From Thermocrinis minervae (lineage in GTDB: Bacteria; Aquificota; Aquificia; Aquificales; Aquificaceae), in contig NZ_LT670846.1 in the NCBI RefSeq assembly GCF_900142435.1, positions 710,750-774,749 of the forward strand: a stretch of DNA of 64,000 nt, read 5' to 3'. The notes under the pieces were generated by a model. It did no database searches, had not been told where the DNA came from, and was given only the letters and a program-made list of their open reading frames with translations. The translations under genes and the position numbers were made by a program. Below are positions 55,676 through 64,000 of this stretch, in pieces. Numbering within the stretch: position 1 is the first letter of the stretch; every line of letters begins with the position of its first letter.

Positions 55676-55682
<7 letters not shown>
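54798..55682 (-). CDS. ctaB: Protoheme IX farnesyltransferase
   Basis: 294 residues, about nine membrane segments, UbiA superfamily. The allylic diphosphate motif is NQVFEKDIDAIMSRTSNRP, and the second segment is LFLIMFVWQPPHFWVLAIKY. It converts heme B to heme O, which CtaA oxidises to heme A. The start overlaps the ctaA stop (7 nt). Confidence 0.96.
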
Positions 55683-58906
<3,224 letters not shown>

Positions 58907-62132: not shown

Positions 62133-62642
62133 ATGGCCGAACAAGTAACACTGAAGGGAAACCCTGTGACCCTATGCGGTCCTTCTCTGAAAGAGGGTGA
62201 TGATGCTCCCGTTGCGGTAGTTGTGACTAAGGACCTCCAGGAAAAGGCCGTAGGTGGAGCAAAGGGCGTTGTTCAGGTGATAATAACAGTACCATCTTTG
62301 GACACTCCAGTCTGTGAAACAGAGACTAAGAAGTTCAACGAGCTTATGGCTGGTATGCAGGGCGTAGACGTAACCGTTGTTTCCATGGACCTACCCTTCG
62401 CACAGAAGAGGTTCTGTGAGAGCTTCAACATAGGGAATGTAACGGTAGCCTCTGACTTTAGGTACAGGGACATGGAGAAGTACGGAGTTCTAATAGCTGA
62501 GGGAGCCCTTAAAGGCATACTTGCAAGGGCAGTCTTCGTAGTGGACAAAAACGGAAAGATAGCTTACAAGCAGCTTGTTCCTGAGATAACTCAAGAACCC
62601 AACTATGACGAAGTGGTCCAAAAGGTAAAGGCCCTACTGTGA
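62133..62642 (+). CDS. tpx: Thiol peroxidase
   Basis: 169 residues, atypical 2-Cys peroxiredoxin. The peroxidatic Cys is in PSLDTPVCETETKKFN and the resolving Cys in KRFCESFNIGN. It reduces hydrogen and lipid peroxides using thioredoxin. Ribosome-binding site CAGGAGGTTT precedes the ATG. The 71-nt upstream gap holds TTGACC (62062-62067) and TAAAAT (62099-62104), which are too far apart to pair. Confidence 0.96.
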   Translation: MAEQVTLKGNPVTLCGPSLKEGDDAPVAVVVTKDLQEKAVGGAKGVVQVIITVPSLDTPVCETETKKFNELMAGMQGVDVTVVSMDLPFAQKRFCESFNIGNVTVASDFRYRDMEKYGVLIAEGALKGILARAVFVVDKNGKIAYKQLVPEITQEPNYDEVVQKVKALL

Positions 62643-62658: not shown

Positions 62659-63573
62659 TTAATCCCTAAGAAGAAGGTAGATAAAGAAAAGCAGGGTTGC
62701 TTGAAGACCAAAGAAGGCAGTAAGCTTTACGTAAGAGAAGTGCGGGCTTAGGTACCTTATAGCTATACCTGAGGTATTGTCAAGGAAAGCAAATACAAAA
62801 GACAGTGCAGTCATTAGGTTTATGTATTTTTTCCTGTCGCTGAACAGGGCAAGGTGGCCAACGGTCAGCAGATAAAGGGGCATGGAAAGAAGGTGAGGGT
62901 GGAAGACCTTCCACATACCCTCCCATGTTTTGGGTTTCATGTACCTCTCTGGGTTTCCTAGGTAGTAGTCTTTTATGCCCTGTAGGTCAAAGCCCATCTT
63001 GGAGAAGAAGGCCATAAAGCTGGATGCTATAAAGAGCAGGGAGAGCAAGGAGAATAAAACAAGGATAAGTCTTATAGTGGAAATCCCTACCTTTTCTCCC
63101 TTGGAGTTTGAAAAGAGAAATAAAAAGTTAAGGATTATCAAAAGGGCTACCGTAAGCTGTAAAAGTACAAAGAGTACTAGCTTGGGTAGCACCCAGTGAG
63201 GTCCCAAAAAGTAGATCACCATATCCCACGCGTGGTACAGTATGGCAGTAAGGAAGGCTGTAGCATTAAGGACTTTCTTGAAGGTTTCAGGAAAGTTTGT
63301 CTGCAAAAACAAGGAGCTGAGTACGAGAAGGAACATTGAATCTAGAAAGGTATGCACATGCATATCCTCCGAAAGTTGGGCCAAGGATATCCTTTCCGGA
63401 GATTCAGGATCTTGAAAGTAGTATCTGAGGAGGCTCTCATGGCTAAAACCATACTTGGTGTAGAAGAAGAGCCACGAGCTTACCCAGTAGAGCACGGAAA
63501 AGAGAAGGAAGAGCAGGAGCATGTAGTAGAGCATCCTATTTTCCTTTATGTTGGAAGATACGAAAAACCTCAT
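62659..63573 (-). CDS. Membrane protein with internal tandem duplication, unknown function
   Basis: 304 residues, about eight membrane segments. Two halves are visibly repeated at an offset of about 152 residues: FFYTKYGFSHESL (36-48) against FFSKMGFDLQGI (189-200); HVH (72-74) against HPH (225-227); YFLGPHWVLPKL (121-132) against RYLSPHFSYVKL (273-284), each followed by a long hydrophobic segment. Each half keeps an HxH and a PH. Histidines near membrane ends could ligate heme or metal; unproven. Its ATG overlaps the stop of the FMN-binding gene (4 nt), suggesting a membrane electron-transfer pair. Confidence 0.75.
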   Translation of the reverse strand: MRFFVSSNIKENRMLYYMLLLFLLFSVLYWVSSWLFFYTKYGFSHESLLRYYFQDPESPERISLAQLSEDMHVHTFLDSMFLLVLSSLFLQTNFPETFKKVLNATAFLTAILYHAWDMVIYFLGPHWVLPKLVLFVLLQLTVALLIILNFLFLFSNSKGEKVGISTIRLILVLFSLLSLLFIASSFMAFFSKMGFDLQGIKDYYLGNPERYMKPKTWEGMWKVFHPHLLSMPLYLLTVGHLALFSDRKKYINLMTALSFVFAFLDNTSGIAIRYLSPHFSYVKLTAFFGLQATLLFFIYLLLRD

Positions 63574-64000
63574 CTAGCACCCCCAAACAGCACCTTCCAC
63601 ATATGAAGCACCTTCCTGGCGTTGTCCGTTATGGCCCTTGAGGTGAGGGTAGCACCCGTCATGTTTATTACGTCCTTTTTTAGCCTGACAGGATCTGCCC
63701 CTGACTTTCCTTTGAACTGCCTTAGCCATTCCTCATCGGGCATGTACTCCAAGGGTTCATTGAAGGAAAGGACCTCAATCGCAAGGATCCTACCCTTTGA
63801 ATCAAGGGCGTAAAGGACTGTCTCGGGATGCGTCCTTACAGTATGCACGTCTACGTAGGCGTAGCCTACTATCTGTCCATTCCTTTTGGCTATGTACCAA
63901 GAGATAAGCCTGCTGTTTAGTTTTACCTTAGAGGCCTCTTCTATGGCATTAACCTGCTCGGGAGTAAGCACTACATTCTTCACCTCCACCTTGGCACCTG
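63570..64000 (-). CDS. FMN-binding domain protein (5' end outside window)
   Basis: About 143 residues are visible and the frame is open at the window edge, so a signal or anchor may lie outside. The C-terminal motif INMTGATLTSRAITDNARKV matches the NqrC/RnfG-type FMN_bind domain, in which the second Thr of SGATxT carries FMN by a phosphoester. These domains act outside the cytoplasmic membrane in electron transfer. It is coupled to the duplicated His-bearing membrane protein. Confidence 0.85.
   Translation of the reverse strand, partial: GAKVEVKNVVLTPEQVNAIEEASKVKLNSRLISWYIAKRNGQIVGYAYVDVHTVRTHPETVLYALDSKGRILAIEVLSFNEPLEYMPDEEWLRQFKGKSGADPVRLKKDVINMTGATLTSRAITDNARKVLHMWKVLFGGAR

Follow-up and report, generated by a model that had tools for sequence, protein, structure and literature searches.

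At the right edge of the analyzed 64,000-nucleotide stretch (the window, G000:C1:710750-774749) of the complete, Aquificales-type 1.37-Mb host genome, a gene for a 304-residue membrane protein overlaps the end of a gene for an FMN_bind protein. The preliminary description suggested that the two form an unrecognised two-component membrane redox module, in which histidines placed symmetrically in a duplicated protein might serve as heme b or quinone-site ligands. Here we ask whether the protein is a true duplication, what family it belongs to, and which of its histidines could form such a site.

The membrane protein and its FMN_bind partner

The features of the locus are as follows.

62659..63573 (-): 304-aa membrane protein with eight transmembrane helices (8 TM), duplicated and fused (ORF, repeat statistics, AlphaFold2 helices)
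63109..63573 (-): half 1, N-terminal 4-TM unit, residues 1-155 (hhalign; H72 retained)
62662..63108 (-): half 2, C-terminal 4-TM unit, residues 156-304 (hhalign; H227 and H240 retained)
63352..63360 (-): H72-V-H74, start of TM2; H72 invariant, H74 not
62893..62901 (-): H225-P-H227, start of TM6; H227 invariant, H225 not
62854..62856 (-): H240, invariant, in TM6, 13 residues after H227 (alignment)
63570..63573 (-): ATGA, overlap of the FMN_bind stop and the membrane-protein start (sequence)
63642..63659 (-): TGATLT flavinylation motif, intact (sequence)
63570..64000, continuing to about 64100 past the window (-): FMN_bind gene (PF04205, E 7.5e-8)
Residues 13-40, 64-89, 96-123, 125-154, 164-192, 217-244, 248-274, and 279-303 of the 304-aa protein: long helices (AlphaFold2)
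Residues 45-53 and 197-205 of the 304-aa protein: short loop helices (AlphaFold2)

The two-fold repeat was borne out both by self-alignment and by the predicted structure. Half 1 aligned to half 2 with a BLOSUM62 local score of 139, whereas 1000 shuffles averaged 37 and never exceeded 67, and hhalign comparison of the two half profiles (39 sequences) gave a probability of 99.4% and a score of 125, where 20 column-shuffled control profiles scored at most 15. AlphaFold2 predicted eight long helices (pLDDT 93, pTM 0.89), each half consisting of long helices and one short helix in an identical order.

The partner is an FMN_bind protein, as first described (33.4 bits to PF04205; curated cut-off, 22), and showed weak, below-cut-off similarity to rnfG (TIGR01947; E 6e-7). 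Its flavinylation motif is intact, and among 15 aligned homologues the G, the A, and the second T of this motif are invariant and the first T is nearly so. The 4-nucleotide stop/start overlap, a sign of translational coupling, recurs in many orthologues. A survey past the right edge completed the FMN_bind ORF (L002:2320-2910), whose likely start is about 100 nucleotides beyond the window, and revealed a porin-like gene beyond it (L002:2920-4284). The FMN_bind protein is presumably exported and carries FMN attached to its motif Thr by ApbE; the host genome has one ApbE gene (G000:C1:229242-229949) and one FMN_bind gene. NqrC and RnfG share the same domain (PF04205) and flavinylation motif, but no NqrB/RnfD (PF03116) was detected in the host genome by a search that was positive in four control genomes, and the partner is therefore placed outside an Rnf/Nqr complex. 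On the other side of the membrane-protein gene lies a convergent peroxiredoxin (Redoxin/AhpC-TSA) gene (62133-62642, +), which showed no sign of a conserved neighbourhood when orthologous loci were compared by ORF sizes only.

The membrane protein itself matched nothing in Pfam (at E<=1) or NCBIfam, and only chance matches were obtained in a PDB sequence search. In Pfam, five single 4-TM relatives (see below) had no match at E<=1 except a sub-threshold Inovirus_capsid match to the protein of locus L144, and across Pfam and NCBIfam no relative gave a convincing match. Literature on the combination of FMN_bind, porin, and a four-helix protein yielded nothing relevant. Judged by Pfam models, the protein falls outside the NapH-, MsrQ-, PepSY-, DsbD-, NQR/RNF-like, and DUF4405 classes. 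No significant match was found in a PDB fold search, the best being Bacillus subtilis heme A synthase 6a2j (Foldseek probability 0.89, E 0.066, TM-score 0.24). CtaA/Cox15 proteins likewise have 8 TM in a two-fold repeat and an ExxH at the start of TM2, which a weak profile match places opposite E69-x-x-H72, and a distant, repurposed CtaA relative that binds or modifies haem would account for these likenesses. The low TM-score and the hhalign probabilities of 0.1% and 3.4% argue against it, as do the TM4 and TM8 histidines of CtaA, at whose places the 304-aa protein has lysines. A true CtaA (COX15-CtaA, 8-TM two-fold repeat) is moreover encoded elsewhere in the window (55676-56566, -). Membership in the CtaA family was rejected, and a repurposed CtaA relative is very improbable.

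Single, split, and fused relatives and their genomic company

The alignment of the membrane protein (A1) was too diverse for search patterns, and relatives were hence located with the FMN_bind partner as bait, after which the neighbouring genes were read. No relatives were found in a single-sequence scan of genome contigs with the 304-aa protein, nor was any match found in plasmid tblastn searches. Taxon names are from the titles of metagenome-assembled genomes (MAGs), and some contigs may be misbinned.

Outside Aquificales, the membrane partner is mostly a single 4-TM protein of about 160 to 180 aa, seen in Desulfobacterota, Dadabacteria, Acidobacteriota, Nitrospirota, Planctomycetota, Omnitrophota, and Methyloprofundus. 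Fused 8-TM proteins were found in Aquificaceae, some Hydrogenothermaceae, three genomes of the Kryptonia group, and a single MAG from a deltaproteobacterium, while Persephonella and its relatives encode both halves as two separate, coupled genes. Both halves of the fused form matched the single 4-TM relatives in hhalign (probability, 99.8% for half 1 and 99.9% for half 2). The family is recognised by a 4-TM unit that has an HxH at the start of TM2, together with an adjoining FMN_bind gene or a haem-c insert, and the window protein belongs to it. FMN_bind lies directly upstream in every complete Aquificales membrane-protein locus read, and immediately upstream in 73 of 78 loci from Nitrospirota, Planctomycetota, and Dadabacteria-type samples, all 78 of which encode the HxH; the pairing with single 4-TM relatives was also seen in Desulfobacterota, Acidobacteriota, Nitrospirota, and Methyloprofundus. 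The single-unit profile matched 90/246 sampled genomes in Nitrospirota, 81/294 in Planctomycetota, 61/399 in Pseudomonadota, and 42/58 in the phylum of L117, counts that include the haem-c-insert relatives.

These haem-c-insert relatives form a family of uncatalogued proteins of ~250 aa in Pseudomonadota (L151-L174), in which TM1 and TM2 of the same 4-TM unit, with its conserved HIH, are separated by an inserted CxxCH haem-c motif (profile match to the 4-TM unit, 99.2% over 152 columns). Because attachment of haem c takes place in the periplasm, the TM1-TM2 loop and the HxH must lie on that side of the membrane. Some members adjoin cbb3-type cytochromes c, and those of L165/L175 (L175:7114-7863) are located within a [NiFe]-hydrogenase operon, flanked by hybE-like and hydrogenase-large-subunit-like genes.

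Several other observations concern the limits of the family. Very long Planctomycete frames that might be taken for fusions, the haem-c-insert proteins excepted, were overlapping-ORF artefacts of GC-rich DNA. In Gemmatimonadota (L126, L131, and L134), FMN_bind is followed by a different 4-TM His-containing protein (MTRFQRW...) without a Pfam match; no relationship to the family was detectable, and it is a possible replacement partner for FMN_bind. Contig L080, titled Acidobacteria bacterium J001, encodes an Aquificaceae-like fused 8-TM protein and FMN_bind and is probably misbinned or horizontally transferred.

The membrane protein also keeps company with ApbE. In raw counts that ignore kinship, presence or absence of the two agreed in 59/61 Aquificales genomes (39 with both and 20 with neither), the two exceptions being a MAG of 76% completeness and one further genome, and in four genera both are jointly missing from some members. 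ApbE adjoins the pair in Thermocrinis-like, g2, and several f3 loci, and at the Planctomycetota locus L144 it is fused to an FMN_bind domain upstream of the 4-TM gene. In G020:C142 (L065), a fragmented ApbE lies next to remnants of the membrane protein, FMN_bind was not detected, and the system there seems to be decaying as a whole.

A porin-like outer membrane protein often adjoins the pair as well, and several Aquificaceae have, between the porin and FMN_bind genes, a gene for a lipoprotein of about 540 to 565 aa with two CxxCH motifs and only weak Cytochrome_P460 and Cytochrom_C matches (L034:7378-9006, L055:3581-5275, and L046:3282-4913). The porin and, in some genera, the lipoprotein suggest a dedicated substrate or onward electron path, although neither is universal. 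The porin, together with an eight-helix pseudo-symmetric architecture of a kind common among transporters, could also be read as the sign of a transporter or channel working with it, with the flavin protein as an independent or regulatory member of the operon. Many loci have no porin nearby and retain FMN_bind, however, no transporter family match was found in Pfam, NCBIfam, or the PDB, and such a function does not agree with the haem-c insertion seen in relatives; we regard it as improbable, nearly as much so as CtaA ancestry.

The proposal of a two-component redox module thus stood in its essentials, given the FMN_bind pairing in several phyla, the ApbE co-occurrence, the FMN_bind-ApbE fusions, and the haem-c relatives; the number of components is somewhat more than two, porin and/or ApbE often being adjacent.

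Complementary conservation of the histidines

In the window sequence, an HxH (residues 72/74 and 225/227) and a PH (125-126 and 277-278) stand at matching places in the two halves. These positions match as first described, but conservation does not follow the symmetry. H72, H227, and H240 are the only invariant histidines among 39 fused orthologues (39/39 each), whereas His is found at position 74 in 3/39, at 225 in 4/39, and at 278 in 4/39, and is not a common state at 126. On these alignments the PH pair of the window protein is incidental, because H126 and H278 are unconserved across the 39 fused orthologues, while the HxH pair is conserved in the fused form as one His per half. Besides the histidines, K131, K192, and G206 are invariant (in 30 orthologues and then in 39 fused ones), and Y203, K215, and K283 are nearly so, K283 fully wherever the sequence reaches that position.

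Every single unit examined has both HxH histidines (22/22), and 18/22 have a third His at a distance of 13 residues beyond them; this third His is absent from the Planctomycetota singles, and K131 is absent from several singles. The N halves have retained the first His (39/39 fused, 10/10 split) and largely lost the second and third. The C halves have retained the second and third (38/38 fused, 10/10 split; 39/39 in the full-length alignment) and mostly lost the first, which is present in 4/38 fused and 0/10 split sequences. In a tree of the halves with the His columns left out, the N halves group together (93/83), as do the C halves (100/98), fused and split forms together in each case; one duplication therefore preceded fusion or fission.

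The suggestion that symmetric histidines act as ligands was accordingly not upheld, the conserved set being asymmetric and complementary, with H72 in half 1 and H227 and H240 in half 2, and identical ligand sets in the two halves were ruled out by this pattern. Because H72 on one side and H227/H240 on the other are retained in complementary fashion, the sequences suggest one composite site between the halves, with the single-unit forms acting as dimers. A haem b or quinone role for H72, H227, and H240 is plausible. PepSY, MsrQ, and DUF4405 cytochromes have four histidines (PMC11334425). With three invariant histidines spread over its eight helices, the fused form falls short of the two bis-His pairs of a di-haem b protein, and the single units have the HxH and the partly conserved third His; this scarcity tells against the function proposed below.

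Proposed function

The 304-aa protein is probably the membrane-bound partner in a flavin-based system that depends on ApbE and delivers electrons from the membrane into the periplasm. In the mechanism that we propose, the single 4-TM proteins would act as dimers, each site combining His1 from one unit with His2 (and His3) from its partner. Only one of the two composite sites would have survived the duplication, with H72 of half 1 and H227 of half 2 lying close to the periplasmic side of the membrane. This site, with the conserved K131/K192/K215/K283, would take electrons, most simply from quinol because a cytosolic redox domain is absent, and pass them to the docked FMN of the FMN_bind protein. 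The FMN would in turn reduce an acceptor in the periplasm, perhaps a substrate let in through the neighbouring porin or, in some relatives, the two-CxxCH lipoprotein encoded nearby. That the composite site holds a bis-His haem b has, in our estimate, slightly less than an even chance, and a haem-free quinone site is a reasonable though lesser candidate. Transfer from quinol to FMN is the likelier direction, with fair confidence over the reverse.

Few possible redox ligands, the absence of a cytosolic redox domain, and the position of some relatives among the maturation genes of a [NiFe]-hydrogenase operon (L175) would also suit a redox-inactive protein that serves as an anchor, docking platform, or maturation factor for FMN_bind (and ApbE or hydrogenase), electrons coming from another protein. 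An anchor would not need an HxH and buried lysines conserved across phyla, a redox role is favoured by those relatives whose own chain contains a c-haem motif, and the complementary His loss after duplication points to a real composite site; we therefore think a redox-inactive role unlikely.

The proposed redox system resembles the flavinylation-associated membrane systems described previously (PMC8238504), in which a membrane protein is likewise encoded with an ApbE-type FMN_bind substrate and flavin and cytochrome versions coexist, as they do in the 4-TM family; published work has shown flavin and cytochrome replacing each other in systems that are otherwise alike (PMC8238504). It differs from the NapH-, MsrQ-, PepSY-, DsbD-, and NQR/RNF-like classes of that work in lacking their Pfam families, in size, and in having no FeS, thiol, or NAD module. 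Its membrane component shares with DUF4405 cytochrome b (PMC11334425) a small size, a helical membrane-embedded build, conserved histidines, and clustering with apbE, but DUF4405 has six TM and four central histidines, whereas the new family has 4 (or 8) TM with an HxH and no Pfam match.

More generally, dimers built from 4-TM units, which share an HxH site between the subunits and feed covalent FMN or haem c periplasmically, may represent a previously unrecognised class of membrane electron-transfer protein, found in Nitrospirota, Planctomycetota, Dadabacteria, Pseudomonadota, and Aquificota, in which duplication in Aquificales split the histidines and left one asymmetric site in a fused protein or in two coupled genes; we hold this broader reading to be evenly balanced. 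Surveys have found many genomes with flavinylation machinery and without a recognised membrane electron carrier (PMC8238504, PMC11334425), and the uncatalogued 4-TM family is a candidate for part of this gap. The split of the histidines after duplication predicts an active site between the two units, and the module, which probably moves electrons from the membrane to the space outside it, may be a missing piece of many respiratory chains.
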